From positions 1 through 38,604 of the forward strand of contig CALDDM010000024.1 of assembly GCA_937936355.1 (NCBI GenBank): a stretch of DNA of 38,604 nucleotides, read 5' to 3'. Both the position numbers and the translations under genes were made by a program. Origin of the DNA: Minisyncoccota bacterium (GTDB lineage: Bacteria; Patescibacteriota; Minisyncoccia; Moranbacterales; GCA-2747515). The notes beneath the pieces are model-generated. The model saw nothing but the letters and a program-made list of their open reading frames with translations, searched no databases and was not told where the DNA came from. Below are positions 7,637-20,265 of the stretch, one piece after another. Within the stretch, counting starts at the first letter, position 1; the number at the start of each line of letters is the position of its first letter.

Positions 7637-7664
7637 AAAAACACTACGACGTGTAGTGTTTAAG
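7637..7664 (-). terminator. terminator T1 (copy 1)
   Basis: Nine-base arms AAACACTAC and GTAGTGTTT surround a 5-nt loop, followed on the minus strand by five T. Near-identical hairpins occur at 12511-12536 and 13827-13855. It ends the transcript of the small secreted-protein gene (7819-8013). Confidence 0.75.
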
Positions 7665-7670
7665 TGATTT

Positions 7671-7819
7671 GTGAACCCACGTATTGCAGCTTGGAACACT
7701 TTTATTGCAGAATTGAGAAAATGGCAAAGTATTCTGTCATCATAAGCCATCTGAATATCCCAGAAATAATACCTTTTATTGCAATGCCTTTATCTCACTA
7801 ATACATACAGTGCTTAAAT
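7671..7819 (-). repeat. module A, extended copy (3'-UTR repeat)
   Basis: Begins on the plus strand with GTGAACCCAC, then GTATTGCAGCTTGGAACAC, and continues for nearly 150 bp up to the stop codon of the 7819-8013 gene. A second extended copy lies at 15329-15477 and shorter copies at 10225, 12796, 13640 and 20211. In the direction of transcription it fills the space between stop codon and terminator T1. Confidence 0.8.
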
Positions 7820-8013
7820 CATCCGCGTAGATCTGGACGCATATGATTTGCCCACGATGTACAATTAACCTCTCCGTACCTGCAAGGGTAATTATTATTG
7901 GGAGAAGCCATGGAGGTTCCATCGATGTAATTGCAGACTGAGGCTGCGCTTGCTGTCTGGAATAGAAGTGACGAGACTATGAGACTTTTAAAGCATGTTA
8001 TACATAAATGCAT
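7819..8013 (-). CDS. small secreted cysteine-containing protein
   Basis: A 64-residue product. A consensus AGGAGG (8020-8025) lies six bases before the ATG, one of the best ribosome binding sites in the window and the main reason to trust this gene. The N terminus has a hydrophobic stretch and small residues (SLIVSSLLFQTASA) like a signal peptide; cleavage after ASA would leave about 40 residues with three Cys. The mature part contains DGTSMASP, which looks like the subtilase serine motif, but no other protease part is present, so this is probably chance. A tract of nine G (minus strand) lies about 45 bases before the ATG. Confidence 0.6.
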   Translation of the reverse strand: MHLCITCFKSLIVSSLLFQTASAASVCNYIDGTSMASPNNNYPCRYGEVNCTSWANHMRPDLRG

Positions 8014-8059
8014 ACATTACCTCCTGATTGTTAAAATAACATAATGACCAAAGAATATG

Positions 8060-8095
8060 CCCCCCCCCTGAACTAAGAAGGAAAATTCCTCTTAG
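8060..8095 (-). promoter_or_regulatory. nine-base C/G homopolymer and adjacent dyad upstream of the small secreted gene
   Basis: Nine consecutive C (8060-8068, G on the coding strand) lie in the leader or promoter area of the 7819-8013 gene. Just beside it (8073-8095) is an imperfect palindrome (CTAAGAAGGAA with TTCCTCTTAG). That palindrome lies past the stop of the preceding lipoprotein gene but has no T run, so it could be a weak terminator or an operator. Confidence 0.35.
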
Positions 8096-8117
8096 TATTT
8101 GAAGCTATATACGCAGG

Positions 8118-8756
8118 CTACCGAAAACTTTCTACAACCTTATTGAGCATTAATTTGTTATCTATGTACTCTTGCTCATTTCTTGCACTCATCGACAAAG
8201 TCGTTAAATTCGATGTTAAAAGGTTGCTGAAGTCTGCTTGCGTTTCAATTTTTGAAATGCTCATGATGAACTTGTGTGCTGTTGTTTTTTTACAATGCAC
8301 CTCCAAAAGGCTGTCGGTATCCTTCACCACTTCACATGTGTCCATTCTCTCTTTGAGATATGTGATTTGTGATTCCTTTTCTGCGGGGAGTAACTTAGGA
8401 TCCTCATTGAAATCGAGAGCAACTCCATCAAAATTAACTGCCACATCACCACTTAAAAAGGCATCTTGTCGATTCTGCGGCGCATTTGATACGCCCCGCT
8501 CAATTGAATTCCACCCAGGAGGGCACAAAAAAGATGTTGCACCCACGCTGCATCTTTTCCACTGTGAGGTGTCAATTTTTTCATCGTATTCAAATTGATT
8601 AATATCATCTTTGACAACAGGATCAACCTTAATCACTTCAGATCGTTGCTCACTCTCTGAAGAAATAGAGTTCACCTTTTTGTCCTGTACGACATTATCT
8701 CCAGTACAGCCTGTGAGGATGACGATGGTTAGTAATGTAAGAAGGCTTTTTTTCAT
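8118..8756 (-). CDS. lipoprotein, paralogue 1 of 3 (PsbP-like)
   Basis: The start at 8756 gives MKKSLLTLLTIVILTGC, a textbook lipoprotein signal with lipobox LTGC and Cys17 as the lipidated residue; an upstream start at 8810 would bury this signal. After a Ser/Glu/Lys linker, the domain beginning WKRCSVGATSFLCPPGW resembles the PsbP/Mog1-type fold common in such lipoproteins, with two or three extra Cys. N-terminal sequence and layout match the lipoproteins at 15516-16178 and 16525-17175. The product would sit on the outer face of the membrane; ligand unknown. Confidence 0.7.
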   Translation of the reverse strand: MKKSLLTLLTIVILTGCTGDNVVQDKKVNSISSESEQRSEVIKVDPVVKDDINQFEYDEKIDTSQWKRCSVGATSFLCPPGWNSIERGVSNAPQNRQDAFLSGDVAVNFDGVALDFNEDPKLLPAEKESQITYLKERMDTCEVVKDTDSLLEVHCKKTTAHKFIMSISKIETQADFSNLLTSNLTTLSMSARNEQEYIDNKLMLNKVVESFR

Positions 8757-8899
8757 AAGCATTACTTTGAAGTTTGTAATAATCTTGTCTTTGAGTAAGG
8801 CTTTTATCATATGGTGTCAGTAATTCTCTGTCAATTTTTGAGTAGAGTTGGAAGTGTTTTTTCTGCTATCTTCTTCATCCTATACACACCTCAGTTTAA

Positions 8900-8938
8900 T
8901 ACGAGTTCGATTCTCTGGGGGGTGTACGATTTTGAAGA
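8900..8938. repeat. module E copy 1 (tRNA T-arm-like fragment before terminator T2)
   Basis: The string ACGAGTTCGATT followed by a diverged spacer and CGAT-TTGAAGACA leads into terminator T2. The same order occurs at 13558-13594. GAGTTCGATTCTC can fold as a short tRNA T-arm-like hairpin, but no tRNA body is present. Confidence 0.45.
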
Positions 8939-8972
8939 CAAAAAATTCGCTCAACAGAGCGATTCTTTTTTA
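8938..8972 (-). terminator. terminator T2 (copy 1)
   Basis: Stem TCGCTC/GAGCGA with loop AACA, preceded by six A and followed by six T, so it is bidirectional. A virtually identical hairpin is at 13595-13628. In minus-strand order it follows module C copy 1. Confidence 0.8.
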
Positions 8973-8982
8973 AAAAAATGAT

Positions 8983-9099
8983 GTGATCCCACGGAGAAGC
9001 TTAGTCGCTGATTGCTCCTACGAAACCCACGGTTTCATAGACTTCCTCCACGGTGAAACTACCGCTTCCCCGACCCCCTTCCCAGTTCGAATCTCCGTG
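8983..9099 (-). repeat. module C copy 1, cloverleaf-like element
   Basis: A 117-bp element nearly identical to 12634-12750. A perfect 7-bp closing stem (CACGGAG at 8990-8996, CTCCGTG at 9093-9099) encloses three hairpins: AGC/GCT, a 10-bp stem with loop CAC (9018-9040), and CGGT/ACCG (9051-9064). GTTCGAATCT precedes the 3' arm of the closing stem, as in a tRNA T loop, but there is no T-stem 3' strand. It starts with GTGATCCCAC, the variant of the junction shared by all modules. Confidence 0.7.
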
Positions 9100-9110
9100 A
9101 CACAAAAACC

Positions 9111-9138
9111 AAAAATCACCACGTGGAGTGATGATTTT
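9111..9138 (-). terminator. terminator T3 (copy 1)
   Basis: AAAATCA and TGATTTT arms enclose CACGTGGAG. The second copy is at 12762-12790. It separates module B from module C in minus-strand order, downstream of the UbiA-type gene. Confidence 0.6.
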
Positions 9139-9144
9139 GGATTT

Positions 9145-9225
9145 GTGAACCCACAGCATGGCTTTCCGAACTTTGCTCTGAGCGTGAATACATCAGAGAG
9201 AGTATCGAAAAGTTGGAGAAAGTGA
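9145..9225 (-). repeat. module B copy 1 (3'-UTR repeat)
   Basis: Starts GTGAACCCACAGCATGGC and continues TTTCCGAACTTTG; related copies are at 12546, 13864 and, more diverged, 19273. In minus-strand order it lies between the UbiA-type gene's stop and terminator T3. Confidence 0.7.
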
Positions 9226-9284
9226 TGGTGTAAAAATAGAAATCCACCGAGGTAAATCCCTGCGGTGGAATGTGAGTCATATCT

Positions 9285-10082
9285 CTAACTGACATAGAGA
9301 ACGAGTCCAATGCTGTAAATGAGATGCCTCATCGTAGAAAGCGTCTGCACAACATACTGTGCATCATCTCTTGCATGAACCTGATCCATAGCAAGTTTTA
9401 CAATGAGTGTAATTGCTAGTATTTGCAACGATTGATTTGGATGCCAAAAGAGAGTCGCGCTGACAACGTGTAAACTTCCTACCAAGCACAACCACGAACT
9501 CAACCAACCAAGTTCTGTATGGAGAGTCCGCTTATAACCGTGATCAGAACAAACATCTTGTGCATCCTTGTAGCACTCATTCTGCCAAATAACCGCTGAG
9601 AACAATACGAATGTCATAACGACAAACTCACTAAGTGACCCATGATAGATCATTGCGCAAAAAACTGGCGATCCTGAGCAGAAAGCGACAATAGCATTTT
9701 GAGCAATGTACCAGTGCGGTATAAATGAGTACCACAGTCCGATCAGCCATATAAAAGAACAGAACAATGCCAGGTCTGCTGACTCCATAAACAAAAACGA
9801 GATCAGAAAACAGATAATCACTACACCACACAACCAATACCAGAAAAGTATATGCTTGTGATTTGATGCAAACAACTTATTCTTACGTCGATCGTTTTCT
9901 GCATCGATCAGATCATTGAAAGACATGATCGACATAGTAATCAAAGCGAAAAGAACTGCACTCAAAATACCTACGCCCAGGTTGCTCCAGGCGAAAGCCT
10001 TAAAGCCAAGTAAGGTTAGCAAAAAAGCATACAATCCAGTACTTGGACGACTAGACCTGATTAAAACGTGTACAGTGCGCAT
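9285..10082 (-). CDS. UbiA-family prenyltransferase
   Basis: An integral membrane enzyme family that moves prenyl chains onto aromatic or other acceptors. Both Asp-rich Mg-prenyl-diphosphate motifs are visible: NDLIDAENDRRK (near residue 57) and YKDAQDVCSD (near residue 170), separated by the usual helices; about eight hydrophobic segments in total. I chose the ATG at 10082 because AGGGGA (10090-10095) lies seven bases before it; the upstream start at 10109 lacks this. The acceptor cannot be told from sequence, and no quinone or haem genes are nearby. It is followed by module B and terminator T3. Confidence 0.82.
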   Translation of the reverse strand: MRTVHVLIRSSRPSTGLYAFLLTLLGFKAFAWSNLGVGILSAVLFALITMSIMSFNDLIDAENDRRKNKLFASNHKHILFWYWLCGVVIICFLISFLFMESADLALFCSFIWLIGLWYSFIPHWYIAQNAIVAFCSGSPVFCAMIYHGSLSEFVVMTFVLFSAVIWQNECYKDAQDVCSDHGYKRTLHTELGWLSSWLCLVGSLHVVSATLFWHPNQSLQILAITLIVKLAMDQVHARDDAQYVVQTLSTMRHLIYSIGLVLYVS

Positions 10083-10191
10083 GAAGAAATCCCCTATAAA
10101 AGAACCCACGAAGTATTGAGAAAACTCAACATATAATCATACGATAAAAGAAATATATTCGTCAAGACACGAAACTAACTGTCGGGTAATG

Positions 10192-10218
10192 AAAAAATCC
10201 CTCTGTAGAAGGATTTTT
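10192..10218 (-). terminator. terminator after the DUF5519 gene
   Basis: AAAAATCC and GGATTTTT arms around a short loop. It lies just past module A in minus-strand order. A related CCCTCTGTGAAGGG hairpin is at 20176-20204. Confidence 0.7.
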
Positions 10219-10224
10219 CGACTA

Positions 10225-10279
10225 GTGAACCCACGTATTGCAGCTTGGAACACTTTTATTGCAGAACTAAGTAAATGGG
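10225..10279 (-). repeat. module A, short copy
   Basis: About 55 bp, starting GTGAACCCACGTATTGCAGC and identical to the 7671 copy over the first 40 bp or more. It sits between the DUF5519 stop and its terminator. Confidence 0.8.
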
Positions 10280-10300
10280 AGCCTTTTTGCCCATAAAGCA

Positions 10301-10954
10301 CTATATGTTAGTGGCAAATTTAAATGAAGCTTTGATTATATTCATAACAACTCCTAAATCTTTATCATCCCGAGGCGAAAAAACCATCACCATTCCAGGC
10401 ACTCTACCTTCAAGCGCAAAGGGATGATATACCCCCCAGCTCATATCAACAACTGCCGCAGCATCTGACTCAGAAAGCACAAGATGTAGACTGCCTCGTC
10501 CTGGATCTGCATGGATATGTGCAAATTCACGATCAGTGATTATCCCCTGTGGATTTAATGTTAGAGACTCATCGACAGCCAATGATCGTGTGCCAGGGAA
10601 TGATATTGTACTGAGTTTATCAACAATGCCTTCAATCTGGTATGTTTGATCAATTAGTTTGTCATACATAGTATCATCAGATACCTGATCAAGCTGTACA
10701 TGCGGGATACCATCTGTCACTCCCGGAGCCTCTCCAGATCGCTTTTCTAATATCAATCCGTTCTTGGACTGAGTTTTATTAGTCTTTTGTTGATCTGATA
10801 CATCCCTTTGGTTCATGATTTTGTCTTTTGATGTTGCATTGTGACTACCCACCTCATTGTGCTGCACTATACTCTCCTCTGATCCTAAATTAAGCGCAAA
10901 TATGCTGAGTATCAAAATCAGTATAATTCCAACAAAGATTAACCGTTGCTTCAT
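10301..10954 (-). CDS. membrane-anchored DUF5519 (luciferase-domain-like) protein
   Basis: A 217-residue protein with an N-terminal hydrophobic segment (LIFVGIILILILSIFAL) as signal anchor, a polar linker to about residue 100, and a compact C-terminal domain. That domain has the DUF5519 pattern in order: FPGTRSLAV, EFAHIHADPGRGSLHLVL, WGVYHPFAL, VPGMVMVFSPRD and ASFKFA. Conserved His residues (HIH, HL, HP) suggest a metal or ligand pocket, but the family's reaction is not established. It is probably extracytoplasmic given the anchor. It ends with module A and a terminator. Confidence 0.75.
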   Translation of the reverse strand: MKQRLIFVGIILILILSIFALNLGSEESIVQHNEVGSHNATSKDKIMNQRDVSDQQKTNKTQSKNGLILEKRSGEAPGVTDGIPHVQLDQVSDDTMYDKLIDQTYQIEGIVDKLSTISFPGTRSLAVDESLTLNPQGIITDREFAHIHADPGRGSLHLVLSESDAAAVVDMSWGVYHPFALEGRVPGMVMVFSPRDDKDLGVVMNIIKASFKFATNI

Positions 10955-11029
10955 ATATTTTTCTTAGGGAGCAAACTCTAAAATCCATTTTGATACAAAT
11001 ACTTTGGATATCTGTCGCTAATTTAGACC

Positions 11030-12034
11030 CTATTTACTATAGTAAGCTTTTGAAACTGCAAAACTATCTTCCATCCAATTCCAGCTTTTTACTTTGTCAC
11101 CCTCAACCTGCACTCTCACAGCCCACGAAAATTTCCCAGTATCAGCTCCAGAGTTATTTGCAATTGCACTCATTGTACCCATAAATACCGCCTGATCTCC
11201 ATCTGCAAAGCTATGATCGGTAGCCCAACTGGTTACCTTAAGCCCAGCTCCAAAAAGCGGCATAAATTCTCCAAGAACTTTTTCTTTACCTATCCAATCA
11301 CCCTTGACCCACGGAATACTGACATCACCTTCATTGTGCCATACAAAATCATCAGTCATTAAATTGCTAAGTGTCTCTCCATCACCACTACCAGCAGCCT
11401 CTAGGAAAGATTGTGCTACTGCCAATGTCTTCGTTGATTTATCGTCCATTGCTTTATTATTATTTGTTGCATCTCCACTGCCATCAGTGCCCTGCGCTAC
11501 ACGTAACTGCATAATTGCGCCCACCCAATCTTCGACATGGTCTGTATTTACTATCTTTCCATTCTCTATAGTATGAATATCAATTGATGTTGTCTGAAAT
11601 GGTGTTTCTCCGTCAGCAGTAACAAGACCCATCCTTAGAAAGTCACCCTCCACAGGGGTAGCTGTTGCCTTACTGCGTACAATTACAGTATTTCCAGAAA
11701 CATATTTCTCGACTGGCGTCCATTTGAGATCTGGCATTACCTTGTGGTAAATGTTTGCGATTTCATTCGCGAAATCAGCAGCCGTAGACCCCTCACCTGC
11801 ATTCATCCATGTATCTGCAATGATCGGTGAGAGCATTCCCTCGATTGTTGCTTGATCCATCCCAGTTGATGATAGTGCTGTGTAAAATGGATCTACTATA
11901 CTTTGATCGACAGTTCCTTTGTTTGCCGAATGTGCTTTATCACCATATGCACCAGACTTGCCCATGTGCCCCACTTTCCCGGCAAAAAAACCTACTATGA
12001 GCATTCCAACACCTACCAAAACTATTTTTTTCAT
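11030..12034 (-). CDS. secreted or anchored protein with two NTF2/SnoaL-like domains
   Basis: A 334-residue product with an N-terminal hydrophobic signal (IVLVGVGMLIVGFFAG). Two copies of an NTF2/SnoaL-like alpha+beta cone domain follow: about residues 45-178 (FYTALSSTG, ADTWMNAGEG, IHTIENGKIVNTDHVEDW) and about 203-330 (VAQSFLEAAGSGDGETL, DDFVWHNEGD, VKSWNWMEDSF). NTF2-like domains bind small hydrophobic molecules or catalyse isomerase, hydratase or cyclase reactions; which applies here is unknown. It is divergent from the HxlR regulator gene, with a good promoter at 12115-12143 that abuts a dyad, so the regulator probably controls it. Confidence 0.75.
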   Translation of the reverse strand: MKKIVLVGVGMLIVGFFAGKVGHMGKSGAYGDKAHSANKGTVDQSIVDPFYTALSSTGMDQATIEGMLSPIIADTWMNAGEGSTAADFANEIANIYHKVMPDLKWTPVEKYVSGNTVIVRSKATATPVEGDFLRMGLVTADGETPFQTTSIDIHTIENGKIVNTDHVEDWVGAIMQLRVAQGTDGSGDATNNNKAMDDKSTKTLAVAQSFLEAAGSGDGETLSNLMTDDFVWHNEGDVSIPWVKGDWIGKEKVLGEFMPLFGAGLKVTSWATDHSFADGDQAVFMGTMSAIANNSGADTGKFSWAVRVQVEGDKVKSWNWMEDSFAVSKAYYSK

Positions 12035-12114
12035 ATGCGTACTATTATTTAATTAGAGACATCACTTACATAATTGAAGCGACCAATTCTATGTGCTACG
12101 ATTTACGATAGTTA

Positions 12115-12143
12115 TATTTTAAGATATACTAATCTTTAGTCAA
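12115..12143 (-). promoter_or_regulatory. sigma70-like promoter of the NTF2-domain gene
   Basis: On the minus strand TTGACT (12138-12143) and AAATAT (12115-12120) are separated by 17 bases, about 80 bp before the 12034 start. Confidence 0.55.
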
Positions 12144-12166
12144 GTACTAACTTAAAGGTAAGTATC
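12143..12166. promoter_or_regulatory. candidate HxlR operator dyad
   Basis: AGTACTAACTTA is followed by its imperfect inverted copy AAGGTAAGTATC (about 8 of 12 positions symmetric). It touches the -35 of the divergent NTF2 gene and ends six bases before the HxlR start codon, so one bound dimer could repress both genes. HxlR-type sites are often short dyads of the TACT...AGTA kind. Confidence 0.4.
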
Positions 12167-12172
12167 AAATTT

Positions 12173-12484
12173 ATGAAATATAAAGATCTAGACCTGAAGA
12201 ATTGCCCCATCAGAAAATCTCTTGATATACTCGGAAGTAAGTGGTCATTCCTGATCCTTCTCAACTTACAAGAGAAGAAGCGTTATGGAGAACTTAAAAA
12301 GGGTATTCCAGATGTCTCTGAAAAAATACTTATTGAGAGATTGAAATTACTTGAACAGAAAGGGTTTATCATACGAAAAGATTTCAAAGAGATTCCTCCT
12401 AAGGTGGAGTATACTATTACACCATTAGGATCAAAAGCCTTGAATTTAGCACCGACACTTAAAGAAATAGGTAGCGAACTTTAA
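12173..12484 (+). CDS. HxlR-family transcriptional regulator
   Basis: A 103-residue winged-helix protein of the family's usual length. It carries the N-terminal cysteine motif (KNCPIRKSLDILGSKWSFLI), the recognition-helix region (YGELKKGIPDVSEKILIERL) and the wing (YTITPLGSKAL). Some HxlR proteins sense redox or electrophiles through that Cys. It is the only plus-strand gene in this stretch and is divergent from the NTF2-domain gene; the 138-bp gap carries a promoter and a dyad. The transcript ends at the bidirectional hairpin at 12511-12536. Confidence 0.9.
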   Translation: MKYKDLDLKNCPIRKSLDILGSKWSFLILLNLQEKKRYGELKKGIPDVSEKILIERLKLLEQKGFIIRKDFKEIPPKVEYTITPLGSKALNLAPTLKEIGSEL

Positions 12485-12510
12485 CCTTACTACATTATTT
12501 AATTGAAATA

Positions 12511-12536
12511 CAAAAACACTACGAGGTGCAGTGTTT
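12511..12536. terminator. terminator T1 (copy 2), shared by convergent transcripts
   Basis: AAACACTAC and GCAGTGTTT arms with one mismatch. It lies 27 bp after the HxlR stop and also closes the minus-strand series running through modules A, C and B. Confidence 0.65.
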
Positions 12537-12545
12537 AAGCTAAAC

Positions 12546-12630
12546 GTGAACCCACAGCATGGCTTTCCGAACTTGTGCCACAGAGGAAACATATCCACGC
12601 AAGCATCCAGAGTTTGGAAATCGTTGTACA
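12546..12630 (-). repeat. module B copy 2
   Basis: GTGAACCCACAGCATGGC then TTTCCGAACTTGTGCCACAG. It abuts module C copy 2 directly, with terminator T1 on its other side. Confidence 0.7.
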
Positions 12631-12633
12631 GTT

Positions 12634-12750
12634 GTGATCCCACGGAGAAGCTCAGTCGCTGATCGCTCCTACGAAACCCACGGTTTCATAGACTTCCTCC
12701 ACGGTGAAACTACCGCTTCCCCGACCCCCTTCCCAGTTCGAATCTCCGTG
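12634..12750 (-). repeat. module C copy 2, cloverleaf-like element
   Basis: Differs from the 8983-9099 copy at only about two positions, both in the first hairpin (TTAGTC...ATTGC against CTCAGTC...ATCGC). It keeps the 7-bp closing stem (12641-12647 with 12744-12750). The order C then terminator T3 is the same as in copy 1, but the neighbours beyond differ. Confidence 0.7.
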
Positions 12751-12761
12751 ACACAAAAACC

Positions 12762-12790
12762 AAAAATCACCACGTGGAGTGATGATTTTT
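12762..12790 (-). terminator. terminator T3 (copy 2)
   Basis: Eight perfect base pairs (AAAAATCA/TGATTTTT) enclosing CACGTGGAG. It lies between module A (from the 12896 gene) and module C. Confidence 0.65.
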
Positions 12791-12795
12791 GATTT

Positions 12796-12852
12796 GTGAA
12801 CCCACGTATTGCAACTTGGAACACTTTTATTGCAGAACTGCACAAATGGCAG
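12796..12852 (-). repeat. module A, short copy
   Basis: GTGAACCCACGTATTGCAAC and onward. It lies between the stop of the 12896-13543 gene and terminator T3. Confidence 0.8.
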
Positions 12853-12895
12853 TTTATCTTAAAGAGTGTGAGTATATAATAAATACCTAGACATC

Positions 12896-13543
12896 TCAGA
12901 ACCTGGCCATCTTATAGTAAGACTTCTTTCCCATGTATTGCCTGTGAATATCTATATCAGTAATCATCTTGAAAAATGCATAGACAATTACTAAAATATA
13001 GTGATAAGGACTTTGCCCGATCTCCAAACCGAGACTCTTAGCAGCCCACATAATGCCAACAAATATGCTAAATAGAATGATGTGATGAAATTTACTATGC
13101 AGATCAATGCCAATAAGACTATCCAGTCGATCCTCTGTTTCAACTTTACTATTAGACCATCGAAATATTGAGAAAATTACATGATTAGCAAATAGTACAA
13201 GCGTCCACCCTAATGCGATCTTTGCATCTAGATTCATGTTTGGAAATATCATTTGCAAGGCTTGAGATCCCAATAAAAATAGGAAAGAAAGACTCGCACA
13301 TAACAAGGCTATATAAGCAAAAAATCGAGGCAACCTACCTCGAAGTTTTCTTGTGCGAAAGTGATATACAATCAATGGAGACGACTGGACCAGTATGGAA
13401 AGTATGATGTCAAGAAAGTATATAACAATAATTTCTTCAATGGAAATATTTCCACTCAGCGCAGAGATGACTAGAAAAATGTTTACAACAACAAGTGATA
13501 AAATTGTTGGATTGATTTTTTGAAAAATCTTATATATATTCAT
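12896..13543 (-). CDS. multi-pass membrane protein (possibly DUF6498-like)
   Basis: A 215-residue protein with about five or six hydrophobic segments (near 13-31, 37-60, 75-100, 112-128, 155-173, 185-200). The early YFLDIILSILVQ block and the overall size recall DUF6498 membrane proteins, but I am not certain. Charged loop motifs (RTRKLRGRLP; KVETEDRLDSL) lie between helices. No catalytic signature was seen. It is monocistronic, followed by module A and T3, and preceded by E-T2. Confidence 0.6.
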   Translation of the reverse strand: MNIYKIFQKINPTILSLVVVNIFLVISALSGNISIEEIIVIYFLDIILSILVQSSPLIVYHFRTRKLRGRLPRFFAYIALLCASLSFLFLLGSQALQMIFPNMNLDAKIALGWTLVLFANHVIFSIFRWSNSKVETEDRLDSLIGIDLHSKFHHIILFSIFVGIMWAAKSLGLEIGQSPYHYILVIVYAFFKMITDIDIHRQYMGKKSYYKMARF

Positions 13544-13557
13544 ACAGTCTATAATAT

Positions 13558-13594
13558 CACGAGTTCGATTAGCTTTGGATGCATAGTTTTCGAT
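13558..13594. repeat. module E copy 2
   Basis: CACGAGTTCGATT followed by a diverged spacer leading into terminator T2, as at 8900-8938. Confidence 0.4.
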
Positions 13595-13628
13595 ACAAAA
13601 ATTCGCTCAACAGAGCGATTCTTTTTTT
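13595..13628 (-). terminator. terminator T2 (copy 2)
   Basis: TCGCTC-AACA-GAGCGA with flanking A and T runs, essentially the same as 8938-8972. Here it is joined to a module A copy rather than to module C. Confidence 0.8.
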
Positions 13629-13639
13629 GCAAAAATGCT

Positions 13640-13695
13640 GTGAACCCAAGCATTACAATCTGAAACACTTTCGTCCAAGAATTGAGGAAATGGCA
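13640..13695 (-). repeat. module A, diverged copy
   Basis: GTGAACCCAAGCATTACAATC, then GAAACACTTTCGTCCAAGAATTG in register with the other A copies, ending in the shared GAGGAAATGGCAG. Confidence 0.65.
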
Positions 13696-13726
13696 GATCA
13701 TCTTTTCTTGAAGTTCTAAGTAAATC

Positions 13727-13816
13727 CTATTCTCCTAAGAATGTAGCCGACTCAACCATTTCATCGTTTATTTCGTCCAGCATTACATCATCAATATGAG
13801 GAAAGTCCTCCTTATC
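13727..13816 (-). pseudogene. 3' remnant of a lost gene between two terminators
   Basis: An open frame of 29 codons without a start encodes an acidic C-terminal-looking peptide (KEDFPHIDDVMLDE, ending VESATFLGE). On the minus strand it lies after terminator T1 and directly before a module A copy and terminator T2, exactly where the end of a coding region is expected. It looks like a gene whose 5' part was deleted while its 3' end and 3'-UTR module stayed. Positions 13544-13945 otherwise contain only repeats and terminators. Confidence 0.45.
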
Positions 13817-13826
13817 TTATCATAAA

Positions 13827-13855: not shown

Positions 13856-13863
13856 AGCTGATC

Positions 13864-13945: not shown

Positions 13946-15088
13946 CTATAGAGTGAATGCATCAAAGTACCTTCTATAAATATATTTCCTATCATAACCA
14001 TCATTCTCATTGTATATTTCCAGTATACCTAAATCAACGAATCGATCGATAACTTTCAATGCGCCAGGACGAGAAAAATCTGTAACCTCCATAACTTTCT
14101 TGCTAGTAACAATTGGATAACTAAATAAAGCCTTCAGGACTTTCATGCTACTCTCCGATTCTCTTTTTGCGAGAACCTGCAATTTTTCTGTATCCTCATC
14201 CCTAATTCTTCGTATTTCCTTCGCAGCTATAATGCCTTCCTTTGCAGTCTCAACTGTGCCATCAAGAAAAAAATCAAGCCAAGACTGCACATCTCCACTA
14301 TGATAATCATTCAATTTCTGATAGTATAATTTTTGGTTTTTTTTGAAATATGAAGACAAAAAGAATACTGGCTCTTCTATAAGATTTTTCTTCTTCAATA
14401 AAAATGTAATGAGAAGCCTTCCAACTCGTCCATTTCCATCCAAGAACGGGTGAATCGTCTCAAATTGCGCATGAGAGTATGCTATATGTACCAATGACAA
14501 CGTTGAACTATCATCGTACAAAAACTTCTCTAGCTCATCCAAAGGTTTTTGCATGTTCTCAGGAGGCACAGGAATAAATGATGCATCTTTAAGAAGTCTG
14601 GCACCTAGCCAATTTTGAGACTTACGAAAATTACCAGGATCTGCAAAATGTGATGAACGTGCACCATCCATCAACTCTTTGTGAATCTCTCTAAGAAAGC
14701 GTAATGACAGTGGAAGTTTATCCAATCTCTCTAGTCCAAAATTTAACGCTTTTATATAGTAGATAATATCTTCAGCATCATTTTCCCCACCGTCAATACC
14801 TGCAGACTTTTCCAAGGCATCTGCCATTGTGGCCTGTGTTCCCTCTATCTGAGCTGATGATGTAGCATCCTTGTACGAGAACATCTTAAGAAAAAATTCT
14901 ATGTCAGGCAATGTCTGAGTTATGCCATCAAGTTTTCCAATAAGCCTTTCTGCCTCTGTTGCTTTATTTAGAGTCCCTTGACTCAATACAAACATCGCCT
15001 TTGCAGGAAAATCAACAGGAATCCAGGCTGTATACGCACTATCACCAGTCAAAATCCTTTGCTTTTTGCAGACTTCCAATTTGTTCAT
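13946..15088 (-). CDS. Fic-domain protein with N-terminal inhibitory helix and C-terminal winged helix
   Basis: Fic enzymes usually attach AMP to a hydroxyl of a target protein. The catalytic loop HPFLDGNGRVGR is complete (residues 213-224: His213 as base, Asp217 for Mg, Arg221 and Arg224 for phosphates). SAQIEG (residues 78-83) fits the inhibitory (S/T)xxxE(G/N) motif on the N-terminal side (class II), so the enzyme is probably self-inhibited by Glu82. A C-terminal winged helix (VMEVTDFSRPGALKVIDRFV, about 315-350) suggests DNA binding, which is common in this subfamily. Its control region has a consensus promoter overlapped by inverted repeats, consistent with autoregulation. The target protein is unknown. 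Confidence 0.92.
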   Translation of the reverse strand: MNKLEVCKKQRILTGDSAYTAWIPVDFPAKAMFVLSQGTLNKATEAERLIGKLDGITQTLPDIEFFLKMFSYKDATSSAQIEGTQATMADALEKSAGIDGGENDAEDIIYYIKALNFGLERLDKLPLSLRFLREIHKELMDGARSSHFADPGNFRKSQNWLGARLLKDASFIPVPPENMQKPLDELEKFLYDDSSTLSLVHIAYSHAQFETIHPFLDGNGRVGRLLITFLLKKKNLIEEPVFFLSSYFKKNQKLYYQKLNDYHSGDVQSWLDFFLDGTVETAKEGIIAAKEIRRIRDEDTEKLQVLAKRESESSMKVLKALFSYPIVTSKKVMEVTDFSRPGALKVIDRFVDLGILEIYNENDGYDRKYIYRRYFDAFTL

Positions 15089-15122
15089 ATAGTTTACATC
15101 TATTTCTTTATGTTAACTATAT
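15087..15122. promoter_or_regulatory. 13-bp inverted repeat over the Fic leader, likely operator
   Basis: ATATAGTTTACAT (15087-15099) and ATGTTAACTATAT (15110-15122) match as inverted repeats at 12 of 13 positions with a 10-bp spacer. The right arm overlaps the -10 and the left arm the start codon. A third AGTTTAC half-site lies at 15131-15137 between -35 and -10. Confidence 0.5.
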
Positions 15123-15147
15123 TACACTTTAGTTTACTTATTGTCAA
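15119..15147 (-). promoter_or_regulatory. sigma70-like promoter of the Fic gene
   Basis: Consensus TTGACA (15142-15147) and TAATAT (15119-15124) with a 17-base spacer on the minus strand, about 30 bp before the ATG. Confidence 0.7.
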
Positions 15148-15285
15148 ACTCATAAACTAACTTCCGAACCCATCAAGAGACTTTTACCTATCTACAATTT
15201 CGCAAATCTACAGGAAAAAGAGCAGATTAGTCGTATACTTTTTTCCGAACTTTACATTGAGGGATAAACTCTTTATTATAGCGCT

Positions 15286-15319
15286 CAAATCGGATTACAG
15301 TGTCTTGAAAACCGATTTG
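15286..15319 (-). terminator. hairpin after module A, probable terminator
   Basis: CAAATCGG and CCGATTTG arms around an 18-nt loop. It occupies the position where other module A copies are followed by a terminator, but the loop is long and the T run poor. Confidence 0.4.
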
Positions 15320-15328
15320 ATGCTGTTT

Positions 15329-15477
15329 GTGAACCCACGTATTGCAACTTGGAACACCTTTATAGCAGAATTGAGGAAATGGCACAGTATTCTATCACCA
15401 CAAAACATCTGAATATCCCAGAAATAACGCCTTTTATTACAATGCCTTTGTTTCATTAATACATACAGCACTTAAAT
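15329..15477 (-). repeat. module A, second extended copy
   Basis: About 149 bp aligned over its whole length with 7671-7819, including the distal part CTGAATATCCCAGAAATAA and AATACATACAG. It ends about 40 bp past the stop of the 15516 lipoprotein gene. Confidence 0.8.
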
Positions 15478-15515
15478 TTTATAGGCACATAAGAAATATG
15501 AAACTAAAAGAATCT

Positions 15516-16178
15516 TTATAGAAAACGAAAGCTATCAAGCATCTTTCTAAGAGAAGGTGCATGATCACTATTAGTGCAATACACAGAAATTAGACTGTCA
15601 GACACACTCCACGAAGTTGGTGGCTTTGAAATTCTTAATCCTGAAGAGTTACTCGTACCAGCGGGAGGAATTTTGCACTCGCTTCCATCGCTCCCTTGAA
15701 TACTGCCAAAAAGATCTTTATTCGGAAGCTTGGAATCCGTGACGACAGATGCGAACCTGCCAGCAAAGTCAAAGCCATCTGTTAATTCTGATTCGTATAA
15801 AGACTCTTGAAAACGTCCGCTTGGAGATATGCCTATACCATATGCTGATATGCAGTCTGAAGAATCATTGCCACAAAGCTCAATTAACCTAAATCTTGTA
15901 CCTGGACCATCAGGGACCTCTTGAACTTCAAAGCTCTCTGGATGCATAATAGAAAAACCGTACTCCTCATTAGTGTAGGTATTCCAGCCTGTTACATCAA
16001 ATTCTTCTACTTCTTTTATGATTGCATTTATTTTCTCAGTATCATTTGACGCATCAACAGTCTCTGGTTCTTGTGTTATTTTTGGAATGGTATTTACTGG
16101 TACATTATTTACAACATCATTCCCAGTACAACCTGTGAGGATACCCATAACTGCTAGCGCAAGAAAAGTATTTTTCAT
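15516..16178 (-). CDS. lipoprotein, paralogue 2 of 3 (PsbP-like)
   Basis: MKNTFLALAVMGILTGCTGN is a lipoprotein signal with lipobox LTGC (Cys17). After an acidic linker, the segment WNTYTNEEYGFSIMHPESF matches the start of PsbP/Mog1-like domains (aromatic-Gly-Phe-Ser-Ile-x-x-Pro). Four or five Cys in the mature part could pair. The TGCTGNDV start links it to the lipoproteins at 8118 and 16525, but the mature domains have diverged. Its 3' UTR carries the extended module A also found after the small secreted-protein gene. Confidence 0.7.
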   Translation of the reverse strand: MKNTFLALAVMGILTGCTGNDVVNNVPVNTIPKITQEPETVDASNDTEKINAIIKEVEEFDVTGWNTYTNEEYGFSIMHPESFEVQEVPDGPGTRFRLIELCGNDSSDCISAYGIGISPSGRFQESLYESELTDGFDFAGRFASVVTDSKLPNKDLFGSIQGSDGSECKIPPAGTSNSSGLRISKPPTSWSVSDSLISVYCTNSDHAPSLRKMLDSFRFL

Positions 16179-16352
16179 AGAATTTCTTTGAGATTTACAA
16201 TGAAGTACCCTTTAATATAGACTTTATCATACTATATCAATAATTCTGTTTCAATTTACTGTGAGGGATTGAGGGGCTTTTTTTTTAGTCTGGGGTAAAC
16301 TCGCCTTATTTTTGTGAAGGTGGTCAATTTTATGCCCATGATTACTTAAATA

Positions 16353-16452
16353 GACGTTCATGACTTACAACACCCCCACCCTACACCACACGGGGTTTTT
16401 TGGTTTTGTGTGTTCGGGTATAAGGATATGGATAATTTGCAATGGTGCGTAC
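16353..16452. repeat. module D copy 1 and a short repeat F
   Basis: The 345-bp gap 16179-16524 has no supported gene. GACGTTCATGACTTACAACAC (16353-16373) recurs with one change at 19163-19183 and in both places precedes a C-rich stretch and GGGGTTTTTTGG. ATGGATAATTTGCAATGGTG (about 16428-16447) resembles 26145-26164. Short plus-strand frames here (under 30 codons) are too weak to call. Confidence 0.4.
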
Positions 16453-16524
16453 AGCTGATTATCAGCTACGAAAGCACTTAGTCGAGATGATCCAGGATTC
16501 ACTAACACGACAAGGGGAAGTCAC

Positions 16525-17175
16525 TTAGTTCGCTACTTTCATAGATTGTAGCATTGCCATAATGTCTCGATCCTGATCTTGGGTTACTGGATCTGTAAAT
16601 GATACCCATTTTATTACATATATAAATTCGCTCTCTGGAAAAAATACAATAGCCTGACGACCAAATTGACTTCCCTCTTGGCTTTTTGTTGTATTCGTAT
16701 AGATCTTCTTTCCTGGCATCTCGATTATCTGAGTATCTGGAATGTTAGTCCACTTCATTTCTTTCTGTAGAACTATATCATTTGCATTAGCAGAGCTATT
16801 CAGAAATTCTTCAAAATTTGCAAATCTCTCTTTGTTTAGAAGAAATCGTATATTGAAACTTTTTCCATGTATAAAATTAAATTGGACAGCTTTTTCCAAT
16901 CTTGGATTATTTTCAAAGTTGTCGCCTTCATCAAGATTCGCTATTTCGATATTCAAATCTGTTACTTCTGGATATTTAATCTGAAAGTTATGTGATTCAT
17001 CAGTGTACACCTCCCATTCTGTTGTATCTATTCCCTCTGTATTATCAAGTCCAATTGTCACTGGTCGTTGCTCTATTTCTGGAACAAATTTTACAGACAC
17101 ATCTTTTTCAACGTCATTTCCAGTACAACCTACGAGGATGACGATGGCTGGTAAAGAAAGAAGGCTTTTTTTCAT
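16525..17175 (-). CDS. lipoprotein, paralogue 3 of 3 (PsbP-like)
   Basis: The ATG at 17175 gives MKKSLLSLPAIVILVGC with lipobox LVGC, nearly the same signal as the 8118 gene; a TTG nine bases upstream is less likely. The mature part runs through an acidic linker to WEVYTDESHNFQIKYPEV, a PsbP/Mog1-like domain start, then alternating strands. There are no Cys besides the lipidated one. The start lies six bases after the stop of the 17181-17456 gene, implying co-transcription with the small membrane proteins. Role unknown. Confidence 0.7.
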   Translation of the reverse strand: MKKSLLSLPAIVILVGCTGNDVEKDVSVKFVPEIEQRPVTIGLDNTEGIDTTEWEVYTDESHNFQIKYPEVTDLNIEIANLDEGDNFENNPRLEKAVQFNFIHGKSFNIRFLLNKERFANFEEFLNSSANANDIVLQKEMKWTNIPDTQIIEMPGKKIYTNTTKSQEGSQFGRQAIVFFPESEFIYVIKWVSFTDPVTQDQDRDIMAMLQSMKVAN

Positions 17176-17180
17176 AAGAT

Positions 17181-17456
17181 TCAACGATTTAAGAATAAAA
17201 TAACTCTATAATGCCAATCACTTGCACCCATTTTATGTAAGCAAAAATTTGTGGCATCATTTTCTACCAGAGATCCATTGACTACGCTATAACACTCATA
17301 AGCCAATGAAAGATTATAGCCGATATAAAGACTGGTGCATACCATGAATATAGACGTAACTGCGTATGCTGCGTACTTTACACCATACTTTTTATAGATA
17401 AAGAATACTGGGACAATCAAGGAGAATACAGCATATAAAAGTATGTATTTAAGCAT
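17181..17456 (-). CDS. small membrane protein, three hydrophobic segments
   Basis: A 91-residue protein with hydrophobic stretches at about 2-20 and 28-47, then a Cys-containing loop (YECYSVVNGSL and FCLHKMGASDW) and a final hydrophobic end. No family recognised. It lies in the series of small membrane proteins (17181-19052) and directly precedes the third lipoprotein. Confidence 0.5.
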   Translation of the reverse strand: MLKYILLYAVFSLIVPVFFIYKKYGVKYAAYAVTSIFMVCTSLYIGYNLSLAYECYSVVNGSLVENDATNFCLHKMGASDWHYRVILFLNR

Positions 17457-17542
17457 TCTACAGAGATTAATATTATATATCGCAGTATAGCAGAAAGCCA
17501 GATGATTTAATCACTTCCAATTACCCTGTGAAACAGATGTGT

Positions 17543-18037
17543 CTATTCGTTCAATAACCTCCTCAGCGAAAAGTATAAAAAAGAGAGTGATGAGACATGA
17601 AGACCTATCAACGTCATTGATGTGATACTGACATCCTGATAGCTGAGTAATCGTACCACGATATTTCTATAAGCGTTTTCTGCATGAAAAGGAATGTTAA
17701 GTGAGCCAGAGAAGCCTGGGTCAATCAAAAAATAGAATGAGATACTAAAACATATGGCCACATAAAGGAGAAAGTAGTTTCTGATAATGTGCCACCGCTT
17801 CTTTGTGTCAAACAATTTGCCTAGTACAAAAAATACCACAAGAAGTATAAGTGTTCCGATGATATAAGAAAGAGTGAAGAAAACTAAAGGCGACATGAGG
17901 CCCGGAGCTGGATTGTCGTAGCCTAGCACAAAGAAGCTAGATCCTAAGTAAAGTAGCCCAACAAAGGTTGCTGCGCTTACCATCAGAATAAAAGAGAGAA
18001 TGGGATAATAGTTACGTAAAGTAAACATAGACACCAT
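17543..18037 (-). CDS. four-helix membrane protein of a local family, member 1
   Basis: A 164-residue protein with four hydrophobic segments (about 10-32, 50-74, 88-106, 135-155). The loop NIPFHAENAYRNI before the last helix resembles VPFHAVGNPFLYI in the protein at 18510-19052, and the order of helices and loops is the same, so they look paralogous. Function unknown. It starts about 30 bp after the preceding gene. Confidence 0.55.
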   Translation of the reverse strand: MVSMFTLRNYYPILSFILMVSAATFVGLLYLGSSFFVLGYDNPAPGLMSPLVFFTLSYIIGTLILLVVFFVLGKLFDTKKRWHIIRNYFLLYVAICFSISFYFLIDPGFSGSLNIPFHAENAYRNIVVRLLSYQDVSITSMTLIGLHVSSLSFLYFSLRRLLNE

Positions 18038-18067
18038 TAAATGATTACAACACTTATTCTTGAATAT

Positions 18068-18499
18068 TTACTTTTGATTTTTCCACATAAATACAAACAT
18101 CATAAAGCTGAATGCTGGTACTGCAAAATGTGGTACAAATGCATTAAATGATCGACTGTATGACTCTCCCGTAAGGTAAAGACTGCTTACAGAATTCATA
18201 AATACAGACTCAAAAAAGGAAGCTGCCAAGAACAATACTATAGTTGTCGCGTAAGAAATGACTAAGCTCACGCCTTGTTTTTGCAATTTTTTTGCAACCC
18301 ACACTATCAGAAAGCTAGTCAATATAGTTGAAATCATTAATCCAACGATATAATAAGGGAAAGCTGATGCATATTCCACCTCATCACTCACAACTTTAGC
18401 ACTGAGTAGTGCTGGTACATAGCTTGCTACATTTATGAGATGCGCAGAAAAATATACTATAAAAGCGTAGGTTGTGATTTTTATTATTTTTCTAGTCAT
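18068..18499 (-). CDS. four-helix membrane protein of a local family, member 2
   Basis: A 143-residue protein with four hydrophobic segments (about 8-30, 45-67, 78-98, 120-138). FNAFVPHFAVPAFSF before the last helix sits where its neighbours carry their PFHA loop. The ATG is 10 bp after the previous gene's stop. Function unknown. Confidence 0.55.
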   Translation of the reverse strand: MTRKIIKITTYAFIVYFSAHLINVASYVPALLSAKVVSDEVEYASAFPYYIVGLMISTILTSFLIVWVAKKLQKQGVSLVISYATTIVLFLAASFFESVFMNSVSSLYLTGESYSRSFNAFVPHFAVPAFSFMMFVFMWKNQK

Positions 18500-18509
18500 A
18501 ATATGATAT

Positions 18510-19052
18510 TCATCTGTACTTCTTTAAGGCTACGTATATACCAACCAATGAGAGAATATTCATTACTGATAACAAGAATTGAAAGACCGGAGAATTATAT
18601 GGTCCAATATAAAGAAAGGGATTGCCAACTGCATGAAATGGCACCCCTAATGCGGAATTTTGTAGATAGATGAACTTTGTTATCAGGGCGATAAGTACAC
18701 ATATTAGGGTGTATATAAGGAATGCCGTTCGAATACTACTCCAACTTTTATCACTATTACATAGGATAATAATTTTCGAGAATGCCCAGTATATTGCAAC
18801 GCTTACTGTAATGTAGACCATCACAGATAACATCATCCCATAAAATGTCGAGAGTGTTCGTGTTGAAAAATCTGTGATAACAAAAACAAAGGCAAAACCT
18901 GCGAAACCCAGAATAGCTGATGATACACTCATCAGGAAAGAAAGTGTTAATATCTTCTTTATACGCATAGAAACTTTACTTATATCCCAACCACTTCTCA
19001 TTCCTTTCAGCGAAAGGTGTGTGTATCCTACTAGAGACAAAACATTTGTCAA
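18510..19052 (-). CDS. four-helix membrane protein of a local family, member 3
   Basis: A 180-residue frame; the first membrane segment only begins near residue 33, so the true start may be the ATG at 18968 (MRIKKILTLSFLMS) or 19001 rather than 19052. Four helices and the VPFHAVGNPFLYI loop tie it to the two proteins that follow it. First gene of the membrane-protein series; the upstream boundary is the strong hairpin at 19237-19268. Confidence 0.5.
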   Translation of the reverse strand: MTNVLSLVGYTHLSLKGMRSGWDISKVSMRIKKILTLSFLMSVSSAILGFAGFAFVFVITDFSTRTLSTFYGMMLSVMVYITVSVAIYWAFSKIIILCNSDKSWSSIRTAFLIYTLICVLIALITKFIYLQNSALGVPFHAVGNPFLYIGPYNSPVFQFLLSVMNILSLVGIYVALKKYR

Positions 19053-19162
19053 TGTGAAAGATCTCCAAATGTGGATGCACTTTCACTCACTTAAACACCA
19101 GTGTTTTCCACTACCGCTCATACAGCAGTATTTCCTACAGCACAACTAACACCCCTCTTTCT

Positions 19163-19183
19163 GACGTTCATGATTTACAACAC
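19163..19183. repeat. module D copy 2
   Basis: GACGTTCATGATTTACAACAC, one base different from 16353-16373. The gap 19053-19435 otherwise holds only the terminator and module B described next. Confidence 0.45.
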
Positions 19184-19236
19184 TTTCACTCATTCCCCAT
19201 GTGGTTGGATTCTCCTACTCTGTTGTAATTTTCGCA

Positions 19237-19268
19237 CCAAAAAACCCCTCAACAAAGGGGTTTTTTGG
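19237..19268. terminator. strong bidirectional hairpin
   Basis: A perfect 12-bp stem (CCAAAAAACCCC with GGGGTTTTTTGG) around an 8-nt loop. It follows module B copy 4 in minus-strand order. Confidence 0.75.
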
Positions 19269-19272
19269 TAAT

Positions 19273-19345
19273 GTAGCCCCACTCCAAATGCGTATCTTTC
19301 CGAACTTTGTTTTAAGCGAGAATATATTCAAAAATCCGCAAAGGA
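19273..19345 (-). repeat. module B copy 4 (diverged)
   Basis: GTAGCCCCACTCCAAATGCG then TCTTTCCGAACTTTG and AAGCGAGAATATATTC, in register with module B copy 1. No coding region now lies on its upstream minus-strand side, so the gene it belonged to may be lost. Confidence 0.5.
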
Positions 19346-19435
19346 TTTAGCTGCCATTAATTTCCATATTTAGGTCAAGATTGACTAATGCCCCTTTAGT
19401 GCTAGACTGTCAACGTAAAATGCAATTACACATAC

Positions 19436-20152
19436 ATGAGATCTTTTCTGCAATTTCTTCATTTACCATCTTTCATAGCAGTATTCACACTTCTCAGCTT
19501 TCTATACATGCAATTAAGTCATAGTGATGCAGATAACTTCACTCCGTTTTATGAATTACGTCGAGTATTTATTTTTTCACTTTTTGTATGGCTATTTTTA
19601 TCCGCAATAACTTATCTCATATCCAAAAAACTCCCGAAAATTTCTTACATGCGACACCTTCTCAGCTTCTTGAGTCTTATCATTAGCGTCTTTTTCGTTG
19701 TAAAAATCATGGCACTATTTCCCACAATGAGACTCACCACAGGCACATTAGACTTTGAAACTTTTATGACATGTCATACTGGGACGCGTGAGTTTTTTAG
19801 TCATGACGAATTTGCCTATCGAATAACGAAGGATGCAGTCTGTATACCCCGTAATTTTTGTCCAGATTTTGCAAAATACTTCACTTGTGGAGGTGTTACC
19901 ACTTGGCCTCAGAACAGTATGGGATACATGCCGATTATTGGTATAGAGAACTTTTCCGCTGTCCGAAATGAAAGGCTTTCAGACAAGAAGTACCCTCACT
20001 GGATTATTGATATAGATGATCAATCGTATTTCTGGTCTAGACATAGAGCATCTTCTAGGTTTTTCCCGATTGACCCAGGGACTTTTAAGTATCTAGGGGG
20101 TGACAAGTATCAAGACAAAGATGGTTTAATAGTAGGTAACACTCGGAAATAA
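19436..20152 (+). CDS. membrane protein with three N-terminal helices and a soluble C-terminal domain
   Basis: A 238-residue protein with hydrophobic segments at about 8-26, 42-62 and 75-98, then a roughly 135-residue soluble part with five Cys (including MTCHTGTREFF, CIPRNFCPDF and YFTCGGV). The tail DKYQDKDGLIVG resembles DKNHVYYDGKII-type repeats of small envelope proteins, but no family is certain. The Cys-rich soluble part is probably outside the cell. A plus-strand gene converging on the toxin-antitoxin operon, ended by the shared hairpin at 20176-20204. Confidence 0.6.
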   Translation: MRSFLQFLHLPSFIAVFTLLSFLYMQLSHSDADNFTPFYELRRVFIFSLFVWLFLSAITYLISKKLPKISYMRHLLSFLSLIISVFFVVKIMALFPTMRLTTGTLDFETFMTCHTGTREFFSHDEFAYRITKDAVCIPRNFCPDFAKYFTCGGVTTWPQNSMGYMPIIGIENFSAVRNERLSDKKYPHWIIDIDDQSYFWSRHRASSRFFPIDPGTFKYLGGDKYQDKDGLIVGNTRK

Positions 20153-20175
20153 TTTAGAACACTCTTTTGAGTCAA

Positions 20176-20204
20176 CCAAAAAATCCCTCTGTGAAGGGAT
20201 TTCT
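20176..20204. terminator. bidirectional terminator between convergent genes
   Basis: AAATCCCT and AGGGATTT arms with a 6-nt loop. It is 24 bp after the plus-strand stop and just past module A of the minus-strand operon. Confidence 0.7.
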
Positions 20205-20210
20205 GGGCTA

Positions 20211-20265
20211 GTAGCCTGTAAGTTTGCAATTTGTAACATTTTTATAGCAGAATTGAGGAAATGGC
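20211..20265 (-). repeat. module A, diverged copy
   Basis: GTAGCCTGTAAGTTTGCAAT, then TTTATAGCAGAATTGAGGAAATGGCAG identical to the 15329 copy at its far end. It sits between the 20323-20481 ORF and the terminator. Confidence 0.6.

Follow-up and report, generated by a model that had tools for sequence, protein, structure and literature searches.

A row of small units bounded by copies of a tRNA-Glu 3' end, probably assembled by serine integrases, in a Minisyncoccota bacterium

Integron arrays are rows of small units, mostly in one orientation, with recombination sites between them and a fixed entry point, and casposons target the ends of transfer RNA (tRNA) genes. Here we describe a row of small units between 7.7 and 20.2 kb of a contig of a Minisyncoccota bacterium whose genus stands close to Ca. 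Pacebacteria (CALDDM010000024.1, assembly GCA_937936355.1; 38,604 nucleotides, hereafter the window). Its units are separated by a 10-bp core and by repeated modules termed A, B and C. We consider it highly probable that the array consists of small elements integrated in tandem at the 3' end of tRNA-Glu(CTC) by serine integrases.

The closest described systems are summarized here from excerpts of the sources. The ssrA islands of Dehalococcoides stand in tandem, are bounded by 20-bp repeats of the 3' end of their target and have a 540-residue serine recombinase adjacent to attL; 15 of them lack the six-gene integration module (PMC3146451). In the accretion of cis-mobilizable elements (CIMEs), elements that have lost their integration genes but keep their attachment (att) sites are lined up with others at a shared target; in the excerpt, integrative and mobilizable elements (IMEs) with serine recombinases disrupt dispensable genes and are not placed at tRNA ends (PMC5704250). 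Islands at tRNA genes are usually made by tyrosine integrases (Islander, PMC4383910), and tycheposons, of 4-200 kb, use a tyrosine recombinase (PMC10872708).

The core and the modules beside it

The tRNA-Glu(CTC) of the same genome (C30:51051-51122) terminates in GTGGGATCAC, with an exact core match at C30:51114. (C24 denotes the window contig, C14, C20, C30 and C31 other contigs of this genome, G002 a congener, and G001 another genome.) GTGGGATCAC is the 3' end of this tRNA and serves as the att site core; the T form, GTGGGTTCAC, is the main version carried by the elements. The motif GTGGGWTCAC occurs in the window at nine exact and two one-mismatch sites, all on the minus strand (11 in total against a mean of 2.67 and a maximum of 7 in shuffles). 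All nine exact sites coincide with module copies, as does the one-mismatch site at 13640, and the site at 23787 lies off any module. The whole 1.21-Mb genome holds 14 exact matches, nine of which are those of the window. No tRNA gene reaches threshold inside the array. Rfam finds no family at threshold in window 7500-20500, its sole hit being a sub-threshold RNAI match (19236-19292) on the hairpin behind the fourth B copy.

The original prediction had described at least six copies of A, four of B and two of C. Repeat and profile searches recovered them all: A at 7671, 10225, 12796, 13640, 15329 and, degenerate, at 20224-20269; B at 9145, 12546, 13864 and 19273-19334; C at 8983 and 12634. A supposed extra A-like pair near 16357 and 19163 was not recovered by the profile search. 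The junctions and modules are as follows.

7639-7661, minus strand: terminator-like hairpin T3, a left end type (hairpin scan)
7671-7680, minus strand: att core GTGGGTTCAC, tRNA-Glu 3' end; array end beside genes 6589-7614, with GreA and lysyl-tRNA synthetase (LysRS) further on
7681-7820, minus strand: module A1, right half-site and flank (repeat and profile search)
8947-8962, minus strand: terminator-like hairpin T2 (hairpin scan)
8983-9154, minus strand: gene-less core-to-core unit, T1 and module C1 (repeat search; C fits RNA model R1)
9112-9138, minus strand: terminator-like hairpin T1 (hairpin scan)
9145-9233, minus strand: core and module B1 (repeat and profile search, antisense frame)
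10225-10290, minus strand: core and module A2 (repeat and profile search)
12514-12536, minus strand: hairpin T3, second copy (hairpin scan)
12546-12633, minus strand: core and module B2, abutting the C2 core via the spacer AACTGTAC (alignment and profile search)
12634-12805, minus strand: gene-less core-to-core unit, T1 and module C2 (repeat search, RNA model)
12796-12860, minus strand: core and module A3 (repeat and profile search)
13603-13618, minus strand: hairpin T2, second copy (hairpin scan)
13640-13705, minus strand: variant core TTGGGTTCAC and module A4 (motif and profile search)
13832-13854, minus strand: hairpin T3, third copy (hairpin scan)
13864-13945, minus strand: core and module B3 (repeat and profile search)
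15329-15480, minus strand: core and module A5 (repeat and profile search)
19245-19259, minus strand: terminator-like hairpin behind B4 (hairpin scan)
19273-19334, minus strand: module B4 with a GTGGGGCTA core, tRNA-Glu(TTC)-like (alignment, profile E 2.9e-9)
20185-20197, minus strand: terminator-like hairpin behind A6 (hairpin scan)
20201-20269, minus strand: module A6 with degenerate core (alignment, profile E 2.1e-8)

Aligned in gene direction, the copies of a module are alike up to the core and diverge beyond it, and the mixed pairing of modules with terminators claimed earlier is real in this alignment. The junction motif had been assigned to every copy; the core is of GTGGGWTCAC type in 10 of 12 (including 13640), but ends otherwise at 19273 (GTGGGGCTA) and 20224 (CAGGCTACTAG). 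A terminator had likewise been placed after each module. The scan, which gave 17 hairpins in the region against a mean of 7.2 in shuffles, puts a terminator-like hairpin behind eight of the 12, and hairpins seen by eye after 10225 and 12796 bring this to ten; the copy at 12634 leads directly into module B, however, and that at 15329 into the end of a decayed integrase gene. The A/T variant of the core keeps to the module side, as hairpin T2 follows GTGGGATCAC behind C1 and TTGGGTTCAC behind A4. Since the variant stays with its module across these T2 junctions, we infer that the exchange lies within TCAC.

The 12 junctions delimit 11 core-to-core units of 88 to 3944 bp. One of them, of 172 bp, is present at 8983-9154 and as a 98% identical copy at 12634-12805, with a core at each end and, to left and right, neighbours that differ between the two places. 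Invariable joint movement of module and terminator would have refuted the prediction's exchange point; the two are not always coupled, although this T1-C unit does move as one block. Confinement of the copies to the window was the other outcome set against it, and they are not confined: B is present on C31, both A and B in G002, and A-like modules in G001. With one A copy as query, whole-genome BLAST finds A on C24 only; with one C-B stretch as query it finds B on C31 besides C24. Weak A-like sites on C31 and one B-like site on C14 come in addition from a profile search over 18 selected stretches. On contig C95 of G002, GTGGGATCACAACTGTAC, module B, GTGGGTTCAC and a T1-like hairpin come in turn behind an intact tRNA-Glu(CTC), and then the contig ends; the same AACTGTAC spacer leads into B in the window (12634-12546) as behind this tRNA-Glu. 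On contig C35 of G001, tRNA-Glu(TTC) is followed by a hairpin, C, core, an open reading frame (ORF) and A-like modules with cores ending CTACA. LysRS-GreA synteny does not place the array: the GreA gene of G002 lies at a contig start, and BLAST (E up to 1e-3) found no module in the ten stretches compared.

Serine integrases at tRNA genes and their half-sites

Head-on to the tRNA-Glu(CTC) on C30 stands a 541-codon frame encoding a large serine integrase with Resolvase, Recombinase and zinc-ribbon domains (PF00239, PF07508 and PF13408). The frame continues into the tRNA gene by way of GTG ATC CCA, which is complementary to the tRNA end. A PF00239 gene on C14 overlaps tRNA-Glu(TTC). Nine PF00239 genes were found, in three of ten genomes searched, and eight overlap a convergent tRNA (Glu, Gln and Ser twice each, Asn and Gly once), the gene at C20:33817 being the sole one that does not. 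Across 128 genomes of the order, this one included, 11 genes of the C30 type were found; nine abut or overlap a tRNA (seven Glu, two Ala), and those in G086 and G114 have no adjoining tRNA. In G086 a stretch of ~160 bp starting with a tRNA-Glu 3' fragment occurs twice, 6.5 kb apart and 71% alike (L158:5990-6149 and 12520-12680). The copies stand before and behind the C30-type gene, which reads into the stretch, and this suggests similar arrays in another family.

Integrase frames running into the tRNA that they abut were also noted at L105:6086-7711 and in L136-L142, L144 and L145-L154. On viral contigs the C30 integrase has no relative, and the exact A and B patterns occur in none of the stretches. 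Tyrosine-type (PF00589) genes number one each in G000, G001 and G002; that of G000, a frame of 338 aa, is presumably Xer-like.

Judged from its sequence and position, module B represents the right half-site in the attP of a C14-type large serine integrase, which targets tRNA-Glu. Read in tRNA direction, C14 carries tRNA-Glu(TTC), then the convergent integrase, several further ORFs, a B-like half-site (nhmmer E 1e-6) and a terminator; the two ends of this element share the core more weakly (GGGCTACA in the tRNA versus GAGGCTGCA). C31 carries two B and two weak A-like sites, and its contig end overlaps that of C14 by 25 nt, which would place these sites behind the C14 integrase. In Ca. Nomurabacteria fen_1327, module B, a 47% identical integrase and tRNA-Glu(TTC) lie within a single 3.3-kb stretch of one contig. 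There the integrase reads into the tRNA, module B follows about 1 kb past the integrase start, and the core GTCACAA is shared by the tRNA end and the B end. The frames agree as well: the C14 integrase ends V-C-S-P and B in antisense reads C-(S/E/D)-P-xAWLSEL. Pairwise differences among seven B copies fall 114/98/169 on codon positions 1/2/3 (uncorrected for relatedness and counted without the copies at 19273, on C14, in fen_1327 and nzgw440). Module A may be the half-site of another large serine integrase, assigned to the C30 type by reading frame only; its differences fall 110/89/125 (again uncorrected, and without 13640, 20224 and the weak C31 sites).

A trace of an integrase gene is present within the array itself:

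15154-15336, plus strand: decayed 3' end of a C14-type large serine integrase gene with one TAA inside (tblastn 47.5% over 61 aa, E 2e-8)

A second comparison gave 48% and E 3.3e-8. The match, to the last 61 residues of the C14 integrase, runs into the A5 core at 15329-15338. This match links the window's own array with a serine integrase.

Module C, cargo and neighbouring genes

Module C is predicted to be something separate, a widespread structured mini-element flanked by two copies of its target, one inverted and one direct. It is about 90 nt long (9000-9089 and 12651-12740 in the window; elsewhere in L183-L212, at L213:4449 and 10204 and at L214:3389) and has a GTCG/CGAC stem and two hairpins, with an inverted T-arm copy at the start in many copies; seven of its 16 pairs show compensatory changes. 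The window copies bear the tRNA-Glu arm and end. A copy of at least 14 nt of the tRNA's own 3' end lies downstream of 23 out of 74 tRNAs, taken from loci mostly picked for resemblance to C or for containing a tRNA, and in 20 of the 23 a C core lies between. These 20 sequences and four others were collected for an RNA model, of which 19 were used (three long ones were dropped, and L049 and win8983 were also omitted from the alignment). The model has matches in 38 of 118 genomes of the order. Thirty loci were fetched from its longer match list. Upstream of 20, a tRNA on the same strand lies within 200 nt; in 14 an exact copy of at least 12 nt follows C, and ten show an inverted run of at least 8. 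The counts of target copies are partly circular, because 16 of the 19 model sequences had been selected for such a copy. The 1.5 kb upstream contain no tRNA in at least seven of the 30 loci, and several C copies lie at 3' ends of protein genes, with inverted and direct copies of the target and sometimes in tandem. Rfam finds only tRNAs in five C loci. The reading of C as protein-coding was rejected, the frames differing among copies.

ORFs taken as genes number one or none in nine of the 11 units, three in one and six in another; 12 of the 14 in the stretch 7.7-20.2 kb have minus-strand orientation. The cargo is:

8118-8810, minus strand: 230 aa, no match in Pfam
9285-10109, minus strand: UbiA-like prenyltransferase (Pfam)
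10301-12484, no single strand: Luciferase-domain protein, SnoaL-like protein and, on the plus strand, HxlR regulator (Pfam)
12896-13543, minus strand: 215 aa, no match in Pfam
13946-15088, minus strand: Fic protein (Pfam; PADLOC SoFic, E 4e-101)
15516-19052, minus strand: six ORFs of 91-220 aa in the longest unit (five of six scanned, with one weak AveC_like Pfam hit below cut-off)
19436-20152, plus strand: 238 aa, no match in Pfam

Compared with one another, the 13 cargo proteins of the array contain a single similar pair, the lipoprotein-like proteins at 15516 and 16525 (39-40% alike over about 80 residues). At the DNA level the starts of lipoprotein-like genes are alike at 8683-8759, 16105-16181 and 17102-17178. 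None of 14 proteins (these 13 and that of 6589-7614) matched anything in 17 other stretches at E 1e-5, and Pfam detects no conjugation or mobilization gene among the array proteins scanned. An intergenic run of nine C (8060-8068) falls within the unit that spans 7671 to 8983.

The array is followed by SocA-like, DUF5648, GmrSD-like and restriction-modification genes, with a defence-like cluster at 32075-38597 (a GmrSD-type restriction gene, a type II methyltransferase and an Eco57I-type restriction-modification gene). At 1430-3394 a LysRS of 654 aa carries a C-terminal DUF2000 domain. Its G002 homologue aligns up to residue 651, nine other family members end at 500-527, and one more stops at 477, at a contig end.

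Assembly of the array and comparison with known systems

Read in tRNA direction, each unit would consist of the core, a left end (often a terminator), cargo or nothing, and a right half-site (A or B) before the next core. The supposed terminators would then be the left ends of neighbouring cassettes. Because a module closes one unit and the next terminator opens its neighbour, modules and terminators can pair freely across the core. The original prediction of an exchange point flanked by ends of mobile elements holds up in the form of an att core with its half-sites, direct for B and by analogy for A. Once circular, an element would have its integrase gene running over the core and into the module, which would encode the last integrase residues. 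The C terminus of the large serine integrase would change on integration, its tail being replaced by codons read from the tRNA, and the tRNA would be left whole. Newcomers would enter at the tRNA and displace older elements outward, and most units would have lost their integrase or never had one. The tRNA-Glu would stand further out, past the side of the array with the SocA-like, DUF5648, GmrSD-like and restriction-modification genes.

Several observations weigh against assembly by serine integrases. No contig joins the array to tRNA-Glu(CTC), the ends of C24 and C30 not overlapping, and none of the 36 tRNAs detected in this genome has GTGGGTTCAC as its end. In the window no intact integrase was found, only the decayed end at 15154-15336, which is of the B-linked type yet adjoins module A5. 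The analysis turned up no element that has an intact integrase and ends in module A, and no PF00239 gene was found in G002 despite its A and B sites. By eye, the left ends have no common half-site beside the core, though a serine integrase should need one. The codon-position signal is modest for B and weak for A.

The decayed state of the sole integrase copy in the window and the lack of an integrase gene in the G002 search would also suit an array that started from one or two ancient insertions and was enlarged by ordinary homologous recombination or by unequal crossing-over between repeats, with the integrases now idle, as would the 98% identity of the 172-bp unit at two places. However, homology ends at the 10-bp core, which is short for homologous recombination, different half-sites (A, B and C) alternate, and the cargo proteins, the two lipoproteins apart, are not alike. 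We regard such growth as improbable. Still more remote is the idea that the repeats are 3'-untranslated-region RNA signals for processing, stability or termination, spread by duplication; a processing or stability signal had been raised in the original prediction. Most repeats do sit on the gene strand with a stop codon before and a hairpin behind them, but in whole-genome BLAST A is restricted to one contig and B to two, the core is identical to a tRNA 3' end, B looks protein-coding in antisense, and B is found behind integrases at tRNA-Glu.

Integration in tandem by serine integrases has a stronger form, compatible with it, in which an integrase resident at the tRNA would insert integrase-less cassettes in trans, one at a time, as in an integron. 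Nine of the 11 units hold at most a single gene and lack an integrase, and serine integrases adjoin tRNA-Glu in the same genome. However, integrase-less units may be decayed ones, as considered for Dehalococcoides in the excerpt of PMC3146451; the cassette proteins are unmatched in the 17 other stretches, and only a gene-less unit is present twice. We hold this stronger form as possible, though not as the likelier case. Somewhat more doubtful is the combined proposal of a serine-integrase counterpart of integrons, with capture in trans through A and B half-sites, together with C as a separate, foldable mini-element at 3' ends of tRNA and protein genes whose stem derives from its target.

To our knowledge it is little understood how genes are acquired by Patescibacteria, whose genomes are very small. 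The att core with its half-sites marks which genes sit as units and at which tRNA, here the SoFic-type Fic protein, UbiA, the luciferase-domain protein, the regulator and the lipoprotein-like proteins. Integrase frames that run into tRNA genes offer a simple test of the integrated against the circular state, and if module C is mobile, it would represent a minimal element of a new kind. A literature search, limited to one library, returned no paper linking serine recombinase, tRNA gene and candidate phyla radiation, or Nomurabacteria, integrase and tRNA gene; in the part of the titles covered, none concerned Patescibacteria islands.

The pattern had been called unfamiliar among named element families, which is wrong as to its kind. 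The Dehalococcoides ssrA islands and CIME accretion share its plan, so that the kind of array is already known and the variant is new. As in the ssrA islands, the units lie in tandem, probably downstream of a tRNA or tRNA-like gene, and are bounded by copies of its 3' end, with a motif conserved beside each direct repeat and one base differing between gene and repeats; shared, too, are a serine recombinase next to the attachment site and units devoid of integration genes. Unlike them, as the excerpt describes them (PMC3146451), the array uses tRNA-Glu and not transfer-messenger RNA, lies in another phylum, has units of 0.09-3.9 kb with mostly one gene or none, combines several end types and has an integrase frame that reads into the tRNA. 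The array resembles the accretion of CIMEs, IMEs and integrative and conjugative elements in its att-keeping, integrase-less elements in tandem (PMC5704250, in excerpt), but its units are much smaller, and Pfam detects no conjugation or mobilization gene in the scanned array proteins.

Integron arrays resemble the window in their small units in a row, mostly in one orientation, with recombination sites between; in contrast to integrons, the integrases found at the presumed entry point are serine ones, not of the IntI tyrosine type, and the core GTGGGWTCAC, read directly, holds no GTTRRRY (attC consensus RYYYAAC/GTTRRRY). Module C is like casposons in duplicating its target at a tRNA 3' end, as far as these are described, and differs in its length of about 90 nt, structured core and inverted target copy. 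Tycheposons, too, are cargo elements starting at a tRNA gene, but theirs is a tyrosine recombinase and their size 4-200 kb (PMC10872708, in excerpt). New here are the nine of 11 units with a single gene or none, the coexistence of several end types within a single array, and the C family; the array is a compact variant of a known way of collecting genes, that of tandem islands, in a bacterium with a tiny genome.

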